Shown: piece by piece, positions 54,708-61,045 of the stretch
Layout of the letters: the number at the start of each line of letters is the position of its first letter
How positions within the stretch are numbered: position 1 is the first letter of the stretch
Assembly: GCA_002748265.1 (NCBI GenBank)
Contig: PDRY01000012.1
Coordinates: 310,001-374,000, forward strand
DNA length: 64,000 nucleotides
Origin: Rhodobacterales bacterium
Lineage (GTDB): Bacteria; Pseudomonadota; Alphaproteobacteria; Rhodobacterales; Rhodobacteraceae
Direction: 5' to 3'
Made by a program: the position numbers and the translations under genes
Notes under the pieces: generated by a model
Databases searched by the model: none
Seen by the model: the letters and a program-made list of their open reading frames with translations, nothing else
What the model was told of the DNA's origin: nothing

Positions 54708-55667
54708 ATGACCCCGAACCTGCGCGCGGCGCTGTTTGCGCTGCTGGCCTTTGCGATCTTTGCCGGGCACGACGTGGTCGTGAAGCTTCTGGGCGCGCTC
54801 TATTCGCCTGTTCAGATCGTGTTTTTCGGAGCACTGTTTGCCTTCCCCTTGGCCACGCTGATGATGCTGCGGGACAAGACCCACGGAACCTTGATCCCGG
54901 TCCACCCCTGGTGGCTGGCTCTGCGCACCGGGGCGGCCGTGCTCACGGCCCTGTCGGCTTTCTACGCCTTTTCGGTCCTGCCGCTGGCGCAGGTCTATGC
55001 GATCATCTTTGCCACGCCGCTGTTCATCACATTGCTATCCGTGCCTTTGCTCGGGGAACGCGTCGGCCCCCACCGGGCGGGCGCGGTCATCTCGGGGCTG
55101 GCAGGCGTTCTGGTCGTTCTGCGCCCCGGCACTGAGGCGCTCACGCTCGGGCATCTGGCGGCGCTCTGCACCGCGGGGTGTGGAGCCCTGGCCTCCGTGA
55201 TCGTGCGCAAGGTCGGTCGGGATGAGCGCCCCGTCGTGCTGCTGCTTTTGCCGATGATGGCCAATGTTATCCTGATGGGCGCCATGCTGGGCTTTGTGTA
55301 CAAGCCCATGCCCGCCGGTCATCTGGGCATGCTGGCCGTGATCGCGGTGCTAAGTTGGTTCGCCGGGCGGCTGATGGTGGCGGCCTATTCTTCGGGCGAA
55401 GCGGCTGTGGTGGCACCCATGCAGTATTCGCAGATCCTTTGGGCGTCGGCCTATGGGTGGCTGATCTTCGACGAAAGAATCGACCGCTGGACGGCGATTG
55501 GCGCGGGGATCATCATCGCATCGGGCGTCTATATCGTCTGGCGCGAGGGGCGTGGCGGGCACTCTGTCAATCGCCCGGTGCTGCGGGCCCGGCCACGGCC
55601 CGAAACGGGAACCAATCCGCGATCCATCTCTTCGATATTGCGCGGCATCGACGGTCGCCGCCCCTGA
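54708..55667 (+). CDS. EamA/DMT-family transporter
   Basis: 319 residues with ten helices in two halves: AIFAGHDVVVKLLGALYSPVQIVF, LRTGAAVLTALSAFYAFSVLPLAQVYAIIFATPLF in the first, and VVAPMQYSQILWASAYGWLIFDERID in the second. A basic tail of about 40 residues closes the protein. Third member of the DMT family in this window. Substrate not determined. Confidence 0.85.
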   Translation: MTPNLRAALFALLAFAIFAGHDVVVKLLGALYSPVQIVFFGALFAFPLATLMMLRDKTHGTLIPVHPWWLALRTGAAVLTALSAFYAFSVLPLAQVYAIIFATPLFITLLSVPLLGERVGPHRAGAVISGLAGVLVVLRPGTEALTLGHLAALCTAGCGALASVIVRKVGRDERPVVLLLLPMMANVILMGAMLGFVYKPMPAGHLGMLAVIAVLSWFAGRLMVAAYSSGEAAVVAPMQYSQILWASAYGWLIFDERIDRWTAIGAGIIIASGVYIVWREGRGGHSVNRPVLRARPRPETGTNPRSISSILRGIDGRRP

Positions 55668-55678
55668 GCCGCGCCAAA

Positions 55679-55692
55679 TTGACACATGTCAA
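55679..55692 (+). promoter_or_regulatory. FNR/CRP-family-type box before the octaheme cytochrome gene
   Basis: TTGAC, ACAT, GTCAA: a perfect 14-bp inverted repeat of the FNR-family pattern (TTGAT-N4-ATCAA with a C/G at the inner position). Centre is 63 bases before ATG 55749, a workable activator distance. The same bases hold a TTGACA, so overlap with a -35 box is also possible. Confidence 0.6.
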
Positions 55693-55700
55693 GGCGTAGA

Positions 55701-55724
55701 TATTCACATGCTTGCATGAGAATA
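55701..55724 (+). promoter_or_regulatory. 24-bp palindrome in the same promoter
   Basis: TATTCACATGC, two bases, GCATGAGAATA: 11-bp arms with one mismatch. It begins eight bases after the FNR-type box and ends 24 bases before the start codon, covering the likely -10/start region, as a repressor site would. Confidence 0.6.
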
Positions 55725-55748
55725 GGAGGCTCTTTCGAAAGGACCGTC

Positions 55749-57380
55749 ATGATTCGACATTTCTCAGCATCGCTCGCGCTGCTGCTGGCGCTGCCGATCA
55801 GTGCTCTGGCGCAAGAGGCCGTGGCCCCCGACATTCCCGCAAGTGGCTCCACCGCCGATCACACGAAATTCGAGATCCTGCAAAAAGACTTCGCATCCGG
55901 TCCCGAAGTCACCGAAGCCTGTCTGACCTGCCACACCGAAGCGGACAATCAGGTCAAGCATACGACCCACTGGAACTGGGAATACTCTCACCCCACGACC
56001 GAACAGCTCCTGGGTAAGCGTTTCGTCATCAACTCCTTTTGCGGCAACGTGCCGTCGAATGAACCGCGCTGCACCTCGTGCCATGTCGGTTACGGCTGGG
56101 ACGACATGCGGGAAGACCCGCCCATGGCCGATGCCGCCGTGGACTGTCTGGTCTGCCACGACCGTTCGGGCCAATATACCAAGTATTCCAACCGCGCCGG
56201 AGCCGTGCCTCTCGATCCCGTGCCGGACGGGGCCAAGACGATCACCGGCGCCGCCGCCTGGCCCGTGGATCTGAGCGAAGCCGCGCAAAGCGTGGGCATG
56301 CCGGGCCGCGACAATTGCGGCAACTGCCACTTCTATGGCGGCGGCGGCGATAACGTGAAGCACGGCGATCTGTCTTCTGCCCTGTATGAGCCCAGCTTCG
56401 AGGTGGATGTGCACATGTCCGCCGTCGAGGATGGCGGCGAAGGCTTTGTGTGCGCCACCTGCCACGTGTCGGATCAGCACGCCATTGCCGGATCGCGTTA
56501 CAACACCACTCCCGAAGACCACCCGGATATGAAGCCGGGCGAGCGCCGGGATGTCGCCACCTGCCAGAGCTGCCACGGCGAAGAGCCGCACCCCACCACG
56601 CTGATGGGGCTGAAGCTGAACGACCATACCGACCGGCTGGCGTGCCAGACCTGCCATATCCCCGAATTCGCCCGCGGCGGCGTGGCCACAAAGACGGTCT
56701 GGGACTGGTCCACCGCCGGGCAGTTGCGCGACGGCAAGCCCTATCACGAAGAGGACTTCATCCAGTCCGACGGACAGCACCTGCACACCTACATGTCGCA
56801 GAAAGGCGATTTCGAATGGGGTGAAGATGTCGTGCCGTTCTACAGCTGGTTCGACGGTCAGGTGCGCTACACCGACACCAACACAAAGATCGACCCGAAC
56901 GGCGTTGTGTCCGTCAACGCCGTCGGCGGCGATCCTGCCGATCCCCACGCCCGCATCTGGCCCTTCAAGCGCATGATCGGCCGTCAGGCCTATGACAGCC
57001 AGCTCAATGAGATGGTCATGACCAATGTCTATGGCCCCACAACCGACACTGCGCTGTGGACCAATTTCGACTGGGCCAAGGCGATCCAGGCAGGGATGGA
57101 CTACATCGGAGAAGAGTATTCCGGGGAGTTCGGCTTCGTGGACACAGAGATGTTCTGGCCCACGACCCATATGGTTGCCCCGGCGGAGCAGGCTCTCGAT
57201 TGCGAAAGCTGCCACGCCCGCGACGGGCGCCTGAACGGGCTGACCGGGATCTACATGCCCGGCGCGACCCTGCCGCCCGCCGCCAAGATCGGCCTGCTGC
57301 TGGTGCTGGCTGCTCTGGCCGGGGTCCTGATCCACGCCGCCCTGCGCATCTTTGGACCGAAAGGGAACAGCCATGACTGA
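55749..57380 (+). CDS. Octaheme c-type cytochrome, tetrathionate-reductase family
   Basis: 543 residues from ATG 55749, with AAAGGA upstream; an in-frame ATG at 55686 lies before the operators. Signal peptide 1-21 (LPISALA). Eight CXXCH heme sites: C58, C108, C133, C190, C235, C272, C299 and C485 (start Cys of each), and a helix about 511-535 near the C-terminus anchoring it in the membrane. Spacing, with a long gap between the seventh and eighth heme, matches octaheme tetrathionate reductase (OTR). Direction (tetrathionate, nitrite or sulfur-compound chemistry) cannot be read. A cytochrome b gene overlaps its end. Confidence 0.9.
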   Translation: MIRHFSASLALLLALPISALAQEAVAPDIPASGSTADHTKFEILQKDFASGPEVTEACLTCHTEADNQVKHTTHWNWEYSHPTTEQLLGKRFVINSFCGNVPSNEPRCTSCHVGYGWDDMREDPPMADAAVDCLVCHDRSGQYTKYSNRAGAVPLDPVPDGAKTITGAAAWPVDLSEAAQSVGMPGRDNCGNCHFYGGGGDNVKHGDLSSALYEPSFEVDVHMSAVEDGGEGFVCATCHVSDQHAIAGSRYNTTPEDHPDMKPGERRDVATCQSCHGEEPHPTTLMGLKLNDHTDRLACQTCHIPEFARGGVATKTVWDWSTAGQLRDGKPYHEEDFIQSDGQHLHTYMSQKGDFEWGEDVVPFYSWFDGQVRYTDTNTKIDPNGVVSVNAVGGDPADPHARIWPFKRMIGRQAYDSQLNEMVMTNVYGPTTDTALWTNFDWAKAIQAGMDYIGEEYSGEFGFVDTEMFWPTTHMVAPAEQALDCESCHARDGRLNGLTGIYMPGATLPPAAKIGLLLVLAALAGVLIHAALRIFGPKGNSHD

Positions 57381-58062
57381 GACGACCCAGACCCCTGATC
57401 GGACCGAATACTGCGTCAAGGTCTACACGCCGTTCAACCGGCTCTGGCACTGGAGCCAGGCCGCCTCGATCCTGATCCTGGTCTTCACCGGGCTGCGGAT
57501 CGCGGGGCTGCACAGCCTGATCCCGTTCAAGGCGGCGGTCGGGATCCACACCATCACCGCGCTTGCACTGCTGCTGCTGTGGATCTTCGCGACCTTCTGG
57601 CTCTTCACCACCGGCGCGTGGAAGCAGTTCCTGCCGCGCTCCAAGGGCTTTCTGACCATGGTGAAGTTCTATGCCTGGGGTGTGTTCCATGGCGAGCATT
57701 CGCCCTACCGCAAGAAGCTCAAGCAGCGGCACAACCCACTGCAGGCGGCCACCTATATGGCACTGAAGATGGTGCTGTTCCCGGCGATCTGGTCCACGGG
57801 GATCATCTACCTGCTCCACACGTTCTGGAGCGATCTGGACCGCGGCAGCTTCTGGCTGACCATTGTCGCCAACCTGCATATCCTGGCGGGCTTTGCGATC
57901 ATCGCCTTCGTGGTCGCCCACCTTTACCTTCTGACCATCGGCGGGTTCCGCAAGCATGTCGCGCCGATGATCACCGGGTTTGACCGCATCAACCTGACCA
58001 AGGAAGAGGCCGCTTACCTCAAGCAGGACGAACCGGGTCGTTTGCGCGAAACGCGGGACTGA
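57373..58062 (+). CDS. Cytochrome b561-type membrane subunit
   Basis: 229 residues; ATG 57373 overlaps the end of the octaheme cytochrome by eight bases. Four helices (about 27-45, 57-79, 128-150, 162-188). Candidate heme-b ligands: His26 (RLWHWSQ), His59 (GIHTITAL), His169 (NLHILAG) and His183 (VAHLYLL), as in formate dehydrogenase gamma/thiosulfate reductase-type b subunits that exchange electrons with quinone. It likely links the periplasmic cytochrome to the quinone pool. Followed by a hairpin and tRNA-Pro. Confidence 0.9.
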   Translation: MTETTQTPDRTEYCVKVYTPFNRLWHWSQAASILILVFTGLRIAGLHSLIPFKAAVGIHTITALALLLLWIFATFWLFTTGAWKQFLPRSKGFLTMVKFYAWGVFHGEHSPYRKKLKQRHNPLQAATYMALKMVLFPAIWSTGIIYLLHTFWSDLDRGSFWLTIVANLHILAGFAIIAFVVAHLYLLTIGGFRKHVAPMITGFDRINLTKEEAAYLKQDEPGRLRETRD

Positions 58063-58076
58063 ATCCGCTTGCAATA

Positions 58077-58103
58077 ACGCGCGGCGAGGTATACGCCGCG
58101 CGT
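58077..58103 (+). terminator. Hairpin between cytochrome b and tRNA-Pro
   Basis: ACGCGCGGCG, seven-base loop, CGCCGCGCGT: a perfect 10-bp stem without T tract, ending seven bases before the tRNA. Could terminate the cytochrome operon or serve as a tRNA 5' processing mark. Confidence 0.55.
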
Positions 58104-58109
58104 CACGGT

Positions 58110-58186
58110 CGGAGTGTAGCTCAGCCTGGTAGAGCACTGTCTTCGGGTGGCAGGGGTCGTGAGTTCGAATCTCGCCACTCCGACCA
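58110..58186 (+). tRNA. tRNA-Pro (CGG)
   Basis: 77 bases with the 3' CCA encoded. Acceptor stem CGGAGTG/CACTCCG, D arm GCTC AGCCTGGTA GAGC, anticodon stem CTGTC/GGCAG with loop TTCGGGT (anticodon CGG at 58144-58146), variable loop, and T arm with GTTCGAATC. The C1-G72 pair is typical of bacterial tRNA-Pro. Reads CCG codons, abundant in this genome. No integrase or attachment duplication follows. Confidence 0.95.
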
Positions 58187-58269
58187 AAAAATCTAGGCCT
58201 CGCCCTGATGCCAGAACCGCCATGATCGCGGATCCAGCCCCCAGAAATTGACATAGAACAAAGTGTCGC

Positions 58270-58293
58270 AGGCGAGACGTAGATATCTCGCCT
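58270..58293 (+). promoter_or_regulatory. Inverted repeat in the SQR-like gene leader
   Basis: AGGCGAGA, eight bases, TCTCGCCT: perfect 8-bp arms 35 bases before ATG 58329. A TTGACATAGAACAA stretch at 58248-58261, a partial FNR-type match, precedes it. Could be an operator or leader hairpin. Confidence 0.5.
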
Positions 58294-58328
58294 TTGGAAT
58301 ATGTATTTACCCAATATCGGAGGGATAT

Positions 58329-59630
58329 ATGGATCGCAGACAGGTACTTTCGCTATTGGCGGGCGGCGGCGCTGCTGCCGCAGTGGCACCGCAGATTGGT
58401 CAGGCCCAGACACAGCGCGCGCAGACCAATGCGCGGATCGTGATCATCGGCGCCGGCGCTGCGGGGACCGCCCTTGCCAACCGGCTGGTTGCCCGGCTTG
58501 AGGGCGCGCAGATTACGGTGATCGATCCGCGTCAGAACCATCTCTACCAGCCGGGCCTGTCTCTGGTTGCAACCGGGCTGAAGCCTGCGGATTACGTCGT
58601 GTCCGACACCGCCAAATGGCTGCCGGAGGGCGTGACCTGGCTGGCCGAAAAGGTCGCCGCCGTCGATCCCGTGGCCAAGACCGTCTCCACCGAAAGCGGC
58701 GAGACGCTGGGCTATGACTGGCTGGTCGTCGCGCCGGGGCTGATCTTGGATCACGGGGCCATCGAAGGCTTCAGCCGCGACCTGATCGGCCAGAACGGGG
58801 TCGGTGCGCTTTATGGCGGACCCGAGGACGCTGCCAAGACCTGGGCCGCCGCGTCCAAGTTCTCCGAAGAGGGCGGCGTCGGGATCTTCACCCGCCCCGC
58901 CACCGAGATGAAATGCGCGGGCGCTCCGCTCAAGCACACCTTCCTGATCGACGATATTGCCCGCCGCGCGGGCACGCGCGGCAAGGCCGAATTCCGCTAT
59001 GCCGCCCCGCAAGGCAGCCTGTTCGGCGTGCCGATCGTGGCCGAGAAAGTGCGGATGCTGTTTGCGGATCGCGGCGTCGACACCGCAATGAAGCACGCGC
59101 TGATCTCCATGGAGCCCGGCGCGAAGCGCGCGACCTTCATGACCGATGGCGGCCCCGTTGAGATGGATTACGACTATATCCATGTCATCCCGCCGCAGCG
59201 CGCGCCCGAATTCGTGCGCCAGTCCGGCCTGAGCTGGGCCGACAAATGGACCGATCAGGGCTGGGTGGAGTGTGACAAACATACGCTTCAGCACCTGCGC
59301 TACCCCGAGATCTTCGCGCTTGGCGATGTCGCCGGGGTGCCCAAGGGCAAGACCGCGGCCAGCGTCAAATGGCAGGTTCCCGTGGTCGAAGACCATCTCG
59401 TCGCCGCCATCACCGGCGCTCAGGCGACCGAGAGCTATAACGGCTACACCTCCTGCCCGATGATCACCCGCGTGGGCCGGGCGATGCTGGTCGAGTTCGA
59501 CTATCAGAACAATCTGGTTCCGTCCTTCCCCGGCGTGATCGCGCCGCTCGAAGAGCTTTGGATCAGCTGGCTGATGAAGGAAGTCGCGCTCAAAGCGACC
59601 TACAACGCCATGCTGCGCGGCCGCGCCTAA
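58329..59630 (+). CDS. SQR-like FAD-dependent oxidoreductase, Tat-exported
   Basis: 433 residues from ATG 58329 with GGAGGG upstream. A twin-arginine type signal opens the protein (MDRRQVLSLLAGGG, with Arg3-Arg4) to about residue 27. FAD loop GAGAAGTALANRL (41-46). Cys196 in KCAGAP and Cys376 in YTSCPMIT match two catalytic cysteines of sulfide:quinone oxidoreductase; another Cys is at 315. Final C-terminal amphipathic helices (PLEELWISWLMKEV) fit membrane binding. It probably oxidises sulfide or polysulfide with quinone in or near the periplasm. Co-transcribed with the next small gene. Confidence 0.85.
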   Translation: MDRRQVLSLLAGGGAAAAVAPQIGQAQTQRAQTNARIVIIGAGAAGTALANRLVARLEGAQITVIDPRQNHLYQPGLSLVATGLKPADYVVSDTAKWLPEGVTWLAEKVAAVDPVAKTVSTESGETLGYDWLVVAPGLILDHGAIEGFSRDLIGQNGVGALYGGPEDAAKTWAAASKFSEEGGVGIFTRPATEMKCAGAPLKHTFLIDDIARRAGTRGKAEFRYAAPQGSLFGVPIVAEKVRMLFADRGVDTAMKHALISMEPGAKRATFMTDGGPVEMDYDYIHVIPPQRAPEFVRQSGLSWADKWTDQGWVECDKHTLQHLRYPEIFALGDVAGVPKGKTAASVKWQVPVVEDHLVAAITGAQATESYNGYTSCPMITRVGRAMLVEFDYQNNLVPSFPGVIAPLEELWISWLMKEVALKATYNAMLRGRA

Positions 59631-59642
59631 GGAGACACGACG

Positions 59643-60005
59643 ATGAAAGAACTTACCCTTTCCACCCTCATCGCGGTGTTCGAAGAGATCTTCGGCCGCG
59701 GGTTGTTCTGGATCATGGTCGCGGTCGCGGCGGTGATCACTCTCGCCTATCTGTTCGTGCTGATACGGGACCGCTCGGTCAGCTGGCGCAAGTTCCTGCT
59801 CGCGCAGCTGTCCATGCCCATCGGCGCGGTCGCGGCGGTGTGGTTCGTGCTGGCCATGACCCACTCCCAGCTCAAGGATCTTGGCGGGCCGATTGACCTG
59901 TTCGTCTTCCTTGGCGTGGCCGTTCTGGGCGCGATCGGGATGGCGATCCTGGTCTATACGACCGAATCCCTGCTGCGCTCGGACCGCGGCAGCAGCGACA
60001 GCTGA
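59643..60005 (+). CDS. Small three-helix membrane protein (DUF5368-like)
   Basis: 120 residues, start 12 bases after the SQR-like stop. Helices about 20-42, 53-74 and 84-107. I recall similar Rhodobacterales proteins listed as DUF5368, but have not checked. Close coupling suggests it is a membrane partner of the flavoenzyme or of quinone transfer. No heme His pair or catalytic motif is visible. Confidence 0.7.
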   Translation: MKELTLSTLIAVFEEIFGRGLFWIMVAVAAVITLAYLFVLIRDRSVSWRKFLLAQLSMPIGAVAAVWFVLAMTHSQLKDLGGPIDLFVFLGVAVLGAIGMAILVYTTESLLRSDRGSSDS

Positions 60006-60021
60006 TCCTGAATGACAGCTT

Positions 60022-60043
60022 CCGGGCGGCACATGTCGCCCGG
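60022..60043 (+). terminator. Bidirectional hairpin between converging genes
   Basis: CCGGGCG, eight bases, CGCCCGG: perfect 7-bp stem, 17 bases after the small membrane gene stop; no T tract. Lies in the 88-base gap between converging transcription units. Confidence 0.5.
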
Positions 60044-60093
60044 ATTGCACCCTCCGCCCCGACGTGATCGCAGCACGCGATGCACCGGGGCGC

Positions 60094-60795
60094 TCAGACC
60101 ATGCGGATCACATCCTTGTCGATGGCCAGCATGTAGCCCTTGCGGGCGATGTTGCGCACCAAAAGCTCGCTCACCATCTGGTTGCCCAGCGTGTCGCGCA
60201 GCCGTTTGATCCGGGTGGCGCCTGCCGCCTCCTCGCACTCCGCCGCGCTACGGCCCGAGATCATGGCCTCAATCTCCGCGCCCGACAGCACGTCATCATC
60301 CATCCGCGCTTCGGCCAGCACCGAGAGCGTCTCAATCGCGGCCGGGGTCAGCTTGAATTCGAAGTTGTTCAGATAGACGAGGTTCTGATCGCGGTTGATC
60401 ATCAGCGACGACACCTGAATGCCCGATTGCTCAATCTGGCCCATCCGCCGGTTCAGCGTGATGAGCATGACCAGAAAGACAAGAGCGGCCACCAGCATGG
60501 CGGTGGCAAAGACAAGCAGCACGAAGATCACGAAGCGGTACGATGTCAGCGTTTCGGAAAAGATCGTGCCCGACTGCGCGAGGATTTCGAGAAGCTTGAT
60601 CTCCGCCGGGGCGGTCAGATCATTTTCGACGAAGATCTGCGTCACCTGATCGTTGAACGCGCCCGCATCGGGCAGGTTCAGGAACAAGAGCACAGCAGCA
60701 CCTGTCAGGAAGGCGACAATCGCCGCGATCCCTATGATGACAGTCCGATCCCCAAGAGCCTTGGCCTCAGAAGCTGAGATAGTGGTCTCCCGCAC
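60094..60795 (-). CDS. Membrane-anchored protein with OmpR-type winged helix
   Basis: 233 residues from GTG 60795, chosen because AAAGGA lies six bases upstream; ATG 60822 would add nine residues without one. Helix 1 at about 18-40, a loop of about 45 residues outside, helix 2 at about 87-114, then a cytoplasmic C-terminal domain (140-225). The pattern FEFKLTPAAIETLSVL ... VLSGAEIEAMI ... IKRLRDTLGNQMVSELLVRNIARKGYML follows the beta-alpha-alpha-beta wing of OmpR/PhoB DNA-binding domains. I infer a one-component membrane regulator, like ToxR with reversed order. It overlaps the upstream exported-protein gene. Confidence 0.65.
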   Translation of the reverse strand: MRETTISASEAKALGDRTVIIGIAAIVAFLTGAAVLLFLNLPDAGAFNDQVTQIFVENDLTAPAEIKLLEILAQSGTIFSETLTSYRFVIFVLLVFATAMLVAALVFLVMLITLNRRMGQIEQSGIQVSSLMINRDQNLVYLNNFEFKLTPAAIETLSVLAEARMDDDVLSGAEIEAMISGRSAAECEEAAGATRIKRLRDTLGNQMVSELLVRNIARKGYMLAIDKDVIRMV

Positions 60796-61045
60796 GTGCT
60801 TTCCTTTCTTCCAGCCCGTCATCCCCGAATGTGCCCATCACATCGAGAAGGGTCCACCCCTTCCCGGCAAGGCGTGGGGTCAGTTCGGCCACGGCTGATG
60901 CGGCGTCACAAGGGCCGGTGATCTCGGCCACACCGTAGGCCAGCCGCAGGGGGTCGTCCTGCTTGGCCTTGTAATCAGCATAGCAGGCGGCCTGAGCGGC
61001 AGGCGCGGCGGCCAGAGCCAGAAGGAGAGAAAGCGTGCGTATCAT
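60767..61045 (-). CDS. Small exported protein, unknown function
   Basis: 92 residues from ATG 61045. Signal peptide to about residue 19 (LALAAAPAAQA). Mature part is short, with two cysteines (Cys21 and Cys46) and the helix LTPRLAGKGWTLLDVMGTFGDDGLEERKARAGDHYLSF. Larger in-frame extension upstream crosses the divergent gap and is not supported. Its end overlaps the start of the membrane winged-helix gene by about 29 bases, suggesting a sensor/partner pair. No family recognised. Confidence 0.7.
   Translation of the reverse strand: MIRTLSLLLALAAAPAAQAACYADYKAKQDDPLRLAYGVAEITGPCDAASAVAELTPRLAGKGWTLLDVMGTFGDDGLEERKARAGDHYLSF

Follow-up and report, generated by a model that had tools for sequence, protein, structure and literature searches.

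Two separate gene pairs, octaheme cytochrome–cytochrome b and sulfide:quinone oxidoreductase–DUF5368, side by side in a Rhodobacterales genome

Do four adjacent genes on one strand, all with a redox theme, work together as one module? This question is raised by a stretch of a Rhodobacterales bacterium genome (contig PDRY01000012.1, positions 310,001 to 374,000), which is 88% complete and divided into 56 contigs. The whole analysed stretch, 64,000 nucleotides long, is called the window here. Between 55.6 and 60.0 kb it contains four open reading frames (ORFs), all on the + strand. They encode an octaheme cytochrome c of the octaheme tetrathionate reductase (OTR) family, a cytochrome b (CytB), a flavoprotein resembling sulfide:quinone oxidoreductase (SQR), and the membrane protein DUF5368. 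A first-pass annotation, made from the letters alone, had noted that the genes were codirectional, which is correct, and had combined them into one module, which relatives do not support. The OTR-CytB pair (55749-58062) and the SQR-DUF5368 pair (58329-60005) are separate units and not one module. It is fairly probable that they are two independent transcription units, with OTR-CytB acting as a ubiquinol-linked reductase, probably of tetrathionate, and SQR-DUF5368 acting as a separate sulfide-oxidising unit.

Two pairs of genes in one stretch

The separation of the pairs is based on gene order in relatives. The related OTR loci are the best 80 of 95 matches; they are skewed to close relatives and partly overlap the 149 genomes of the same family that were also searched, and 74 of them extend at least 3.5 kb beyond OTR. 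In all 80, CytB comes directly after OTR in the same orientation. It also adjoins OTR in 11/11 other same-family loci and in 25 of the 29 phylum-wide loci that, besides the window's own, were collected from TIGR04315 matches over the cut-off. By comparison, SQR or DUF5368 occurs in none of the 80 related loci and none of the 11 other same-family loci, and OTR or CytB occurs in none of the 20 SQR-DUF5368 loci that were fetched. The first-pass annotation had named absence of its gene order from relatives as an argument against its own module, and the four-gene order was indeed kept in 0/80 and 0/11 loci. In the window itself, the gap of 266 bases between CytB and SQR holds a tRNA-Pro(CGG) gene (58110-58186, + strand, found with ARAGORN), which had been overlooked. 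One operon for all four genes was rejected in view of synteny together with this intervening tRNA. The GC content shows no jump at the CytB-SQR junction, and a consensus scan of positions 55500-60200 returned 0 promoter-like sites and 3 terminator-like sites against 2.4 expected.

The distribution of the pairs among genomes bears on the proposal that SQR and OTR-CytB form one quinone-linked chain, in which the oxidation of sulfide or polysulfide is joined to octaheme chemistry. Both pairs are adjacent and codirectional in the window, and a shared regulon is possible because both have FNR-type boxes in relatives (24/80 OTR and 9/20 SQR upstream regions). However, neither pair was found in the loci of the other, a tRNA gene lies between them, and their co-occurrence is not above chance. 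OTR is present in 11 of the 149 same-family genomes (10 above the cut-off), and both pairs are present in four, with 2.2 expected by chance (Fisher p 0.16). The other three such genomes have the pairs on separate contigs (G044, G138) or about 123 kb apart (G052); the window genus is represented by one genome among those compared. A single chain is therefore very unlikely, and the two units would be neighbours by chance of this genome's history. Of the sulfur redox chain that had been proposed, the OTR family stands, the link to quinone is likely and sulfur compounds are plausible substrates, but a place for SQR-DUF5368 in it is not supported. The case corrects a tempting false operon, in which shared strand, adjacency and a common theme are not upheld by relatives.

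The tRNA-Pro gene was also considered as a conserved landing site of either pair and rejected: tRNA-Pro(CGG) is absent from the 80 OTR loci, as is any tRNA-Pro from the 20 SQR loci. In 22/80 OTR loci, the fetched stretch includes a tRNA-Arg(CCG) gene, often 1 to 5 kb from OTR, and OTR-CytB may occupy a recurrent chromosomal spot. Clustering of the genes around the 80 loci gave clusters found in up to 25 of them.

The anchored octaheme cytochrome and its cytochrome b

The octaheme ORF (55749-57380, + strand; signal peptide and C-terminal anchor) scores 587.6 bits against TIGR04315, for which the curated cut-off is 375. This comparison with the OTR profile had been suggested in the first-pass annotation. 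The ORF also matches PF11783 and the solved structure PDB 1SP3 (E 1.4e-100). Exactly eight CXXCH motifs and a hydrophobic C-terminal stretch were found, as previously reported. The start codon is assigned from context: the longer ORF start overlaps an FNR-type box (55679-55692), and ATG 55749 is therefore the probable start.

For the alignment, 135 OTR sequences were collapsed to 117 distinct ones; two copies of the window locus (L001, L124) and a fragment (L091) were excluded, and 1SP3 was added, giving 118 rows. The histidines of all eight CXXCH motifs are present in every row. Seven more histidines (38, 154, 171, 190, 218, 226 and 400) are likewise found in 118/118 rows, except for His218 (116/118). 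The equivalent of Lys153, which we take to be the ligand of the OTR active-site heme, is present in 118/118 rows and that of Cys64 in 117/118; the window protein has both. The seven further histidines and Lys153 together supply the eight distal positions needed. Judged by these sequence features, the octaheme protein is a sound member of the OTR family.

The solved OTR is soluble, and the window protein does not share the features of that Shewanella-type form: it has an anchor and an adjacent CytB, and it falls outside the 1SP3 group. After the last CXXCH motif, 52-65 residues follow in the 113 distinct OTRs that have CytB, compared with 27-38 in the four that do not. These four short-tailed proteins cluster together with 1SP3 (support 1.0) in a tree whose deep branches are weakly supported (0.22 to 0.78). 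With a hydrophobic peak of 1.6 as the anchor threshold, the OTR tails of five loci with CytB remain below it (1.28-1.58). In general, the anchor and the cytochrome b go together in OTR loci. In the Proteobacteria sampled, the usual OTR is the anchored, cytochrome-b-linked form and not the solved soluble one. Two side observations concern the family as a whole. A divergent copy of OTR that has nine CXXCH motifs (L162, G007:C13) comes from a genome with three OTR-CytB pairs. Many of the phylum-wide genomes contain ORFs, mostly 720-750 codons long, that match TIGR04315 weakly, at about 66-80 bits, and probably represent another multiheme family.

The cytochrome b gene (57373-58062, + strand) begins with an ATG at 57373 and overlaps OTR, whose stop codon ends at 57380. 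Its product scores 77.3 bits against PF01292 (cut-off 30.1) and is likely the diheme subunit that oxidises quinol. Both the overlap and the four candidate heme histidines of the first reading were borne out: His 26, 59, 169 and 183 occur in 111/112 rows, and the other row is gapped there. Four conserved histidines are as expected for two b hemes and, with the family score, fit a diheme cytochrome b. Since OTR has a cytochrome b partner, a link to the quinone pool is likely. In the proposed mechanism, the cytochrome b would take ubiquinol electrons in the membrane and hand them on to the octaheme enzyme, anchored in the membrane on the periplasmic side. The octaheme enzyme would reduce a sulfur oxyanion at its Lys-ligated heme, most likely tetrathionate to thiosulfate.

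Direction, substrate and promoter motifs

The direction of electron flow can be considered from redox potentials. Ubiquinone has a potential of about +0.1 V. The tetrathionate/thiosulfate couple is placed at +198 mV in the retrieved part of PMC5146829, and flow from ubiquinol to tetrathionate would be downhill because this couple lies above ubiquinone. The same order of potentials speaks against the reverse reaction, in which OTR-CytB would oxidise thiosulfate to tetrathionate and reduce quinone, as do FNR-type boxes pointing to use at low oxygen. The names of many hosts indicate aerobic sulfur oxidisers, and the window genome encodes SoxB (815.6 bits against a cut-off of 550), which is in favour of the reverse direction. 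On balance, it is quite unlikely.

Regulatory motifs provide a second line of evidence. Upstream regions of OTR in relatives were compared with 813 control upstream regions of greedy mechanical ORFs, some of which are not genes; the shuffled controls of the motif scan preserve base but not dinucleotide content. The relaxed FNR pattern TTGAY-N4-RTCAA, fixed after the first scan, was found 5' of OTR in 24/80 relatives and in 10/813 controls (p 1.4e-19). The sequence ATTC-N8-GAAT, given as the deduced site of Rhodobacter capsulatus SqrR in the available text of PMC9774250, was found in 13/80 and 5/813, respectively (p 5.5e-11). Both motifs, 29-37 bases apart, occur together in 8/80 relatives and 0/813 controls (p 3e-9). 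These p values overstate the evidence because the loci are related, although the spacer bases of the operators do differ between loci. Upstream of SQR, the FNR-type pattern was found in 9/20 loci, the operator in 2/20 and both in 1/20. The window OTR is preceded by the box TTGACACATGTCAA (55679-55692, + strand), which departs from the strict FNR consensus at two positions, fits the palindromic FNR/DNR pattern TTGAY-N4-RTCAA, and is a predicted binding site by that pattern. It is followed by two overlapping degenerate half-matches to the SqrR-type operator (55702-55723, + strand), each with one mismatch and not significant alone; about 0.09 one-mismatch sites are expected per upstream region. 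Scattered one-mismatch SqrR-type sites also occur in six other stretches of the host genome, where they were not judged enriched, with no control run for that comparison.

Because OTR upstream regions of relatives bear FNR-type boxes and SqrR-type operators, the pattern suggests that OTR is under low-oxygen and sulfane-sulfur control. The FNR-type boxes would fit the use of OTR at low oxygen, where an FNR-type regulator would probably raise OTR-CytB expression. In a subset of relatives, sulfane sulfur would probably relieve repression of the pair by a regulator of the SqrR/SoxR type. The host genome encodes two small ArsR-type repressors with a cysteine pair (G000:C2:228221/L199 and C33:62664/L197), the first about 5 kb from soxB. 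The cysteine pair of both resembles that of SqrR/SoxR. Among the matches listed in a search of open-licence papers, none brought together an octaheme cytochrome and SqrR, nor was the OTR promoter pattern found described. The combination of FNR-type and SqrR-type motifs upstream of OTR is new in this analysis, and it offers a testable regulatory hint to the role of the anchored OTR.

Several points weigh against a sulfur-reducing OTR-CytB of this kind. The exact ATTC-N8-GAAT sequence is absent upstream of the window OTR, where only the one-mismatch sites occur. Among the relatives, 56/80 lack the FNR-type pattern and 67/80 the exact operator. Cys64 is missing from one OTR row and His218 from two. 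No activity data were found for any membrane-anchored OTR, and Caldithrix abyssi, which has an OTR, reportedly did not grow by the predicted sulfur-compound respirations. Other points favour a nitrogen substrate, with OTR-CytB as a reductase of nitrite, hydroxylamine or a nitric-oxide-related compound under DNR/NnrR control. In vitro, the Shewanella OTR is also stated to accept nitrite and hydroxylamine as substrates for reduction. In several relatives, TTGATATATGTCAA boxes lie upstream of OTR without a SqrR-type operator. These are possible sites for DNR/NnrR (nitric oxide), in keeping with a nitrogen substrate. Nevertheless, the SqrR-type operators (13/80 against 5/813 controls) point to sulfur, at least in that subset, and the nitrogen alternative is considered unlikely. 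Reduction of tetrathionate by OTR-CytB remains the preferred reading.

A wider proposal can be put forward tentatively, as possible rather than expected. In Rhodobacterales and some kin, the anchored OTR-CytB might be a quinol:tetrathionate (or polythionate/polysulfide) reductase of low-oxygen conditions, inducible by sulfane sulfur and controlled jointly by FNR-type and SqrR/SoxR-type regulators, with the unlinked SQR-DUF5368 partly in the same regulon. If this is true, an oxidiser of sulfide or thiosulfate could send electrons back to its own sulfur intermediates when oxygen runs out, in a small internal sulfur loop.

The SQR-DUF5368 pair and known systems

The SQR ORF (58329-59630, + strand) probably starts at ATG 58329, a start codon likewise assigned from context. 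In the PDB, the sequences closest to it are mitochondrial SQOR chains (E 4.5e-65). The KCAGAP and YTSCP motifs occur in 21/21 sequences, and the window protein has the PF07992 FAD-binding fold and the RR signal motif DRRQVL; the Tat-type, SQR-like character read from the sequence at first sight thus held. An RR signal motif was found by pattern in 20/21 SQRs, and the remaining one (L137) bears RR further down its long upstream frame. The window protein scores 216.2 bits against the selenoprotein subtype of type III SQR (NF049943), under the cut-off of 525. The downstream membrane protein noted earlier (59643-60005, + strand) is DUF5368, with 165.6 bits against PF17336 (cut-off 25), and is predicted to form helices. 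A Foldseek search of the PDB with its structural model (mean pLDDT 76.5, pTM 0.54) found no match at an E value of 0.001 or lower, and no paper on DUF5368 was found among open-licence papers. Convergent with DUF5368, at 60094-60822 on the - strand, lies a membrane protein gene with a weak C-terminal domain resembling transcriptional regulators (PF00486, 21.6 bits, below the cut-off of 26.2).

DUF5368 is above the cut-off in 30/149 same-family genomes. These 30 genomes also each encode a close homologue of SQR (55-100% identity), which adjoins DUF5368 in 30/30, with a gap of at most 25 bases in 28; by hit coordinates the gap is larger in G037 and G011. In 7/20 loci examined (L132, L134, L135, L137, L143, L147 and L149), the pair is directly preceded by cydA and cydB in the same orientation. 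A SLAC1/TDT-type transporter is found in 7/20 SQR loci, and a metallo-beta-lactamase-fold protein, which could be a persulfide dioxygenase, also in 7/20. The Tat-exported SQR would oxidise sulfide at the periplasmic face and reduce quinone, with DUF5368 as its putative membrane partner, and the pair would feed oxidases such as cytochrome bd. With cydAB upstream, it is possibly a sulfide-tolerant unit leading from SQR to bd oxidase. No earlier description of this SQR-DUF5368-bd neighbourhood was found in open-licence papers. The strict pairing with SQR and the cytochrome bd genes beside a third of the loci provide a first functional lead for DUF5368.

Both pairs can be set beside known systems. 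The window SQR shares its best PDB match and both cysteine motifs with the mitochondrial-type SQOR but differs in having a Tat-type signal and a DUF5368 gene after it. The likeness to SqrR/BigR-type operators lies in the occurrence of ATTC-N8-GAAT in OTR upstream regions of relatives, as candidate sites, whereas the window has one-mismatch sites only. With the Shewanella oneidensis OTR (1SP3), the window OTR shares the family by curated model, the eight CXXCH motifs and the equivalents of Lys153 and Cys64; it differs in its C-terminal anchor and adjacent cytochrome b, while 1SP3 groups with the short-tailed OTRs that lack CytB. The set had been called not well described in Alphaproteobacteria, and this holds in part. 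About 67/80 related OTR loci come from Rhodobacterales-type organisms, sorted by record title, and an octaheme protein of the OTR family is mentioned for Thioclava electrotropha in the available text of PMC9226611. The pairing of OTR with a cytochrome b is already published outside Alphaproteobacteria, as the retrieved parts of two papers indicate. In Thermosulfurimonas dismutans, the OTR TDIS_1882 is tied to the membrane by the cytochrome b TDIS_1883 (PMC4911364), and in Ignavibacteriae Ch128a, a cluster of OTR and cytochrome b561 draws on the quinone pool (PMC7509429). Set beside the window pair by description, these systems belong to other phyla but agree with it in the arrangement of the two genes and in the link to the membrane or quinone that was proposed.

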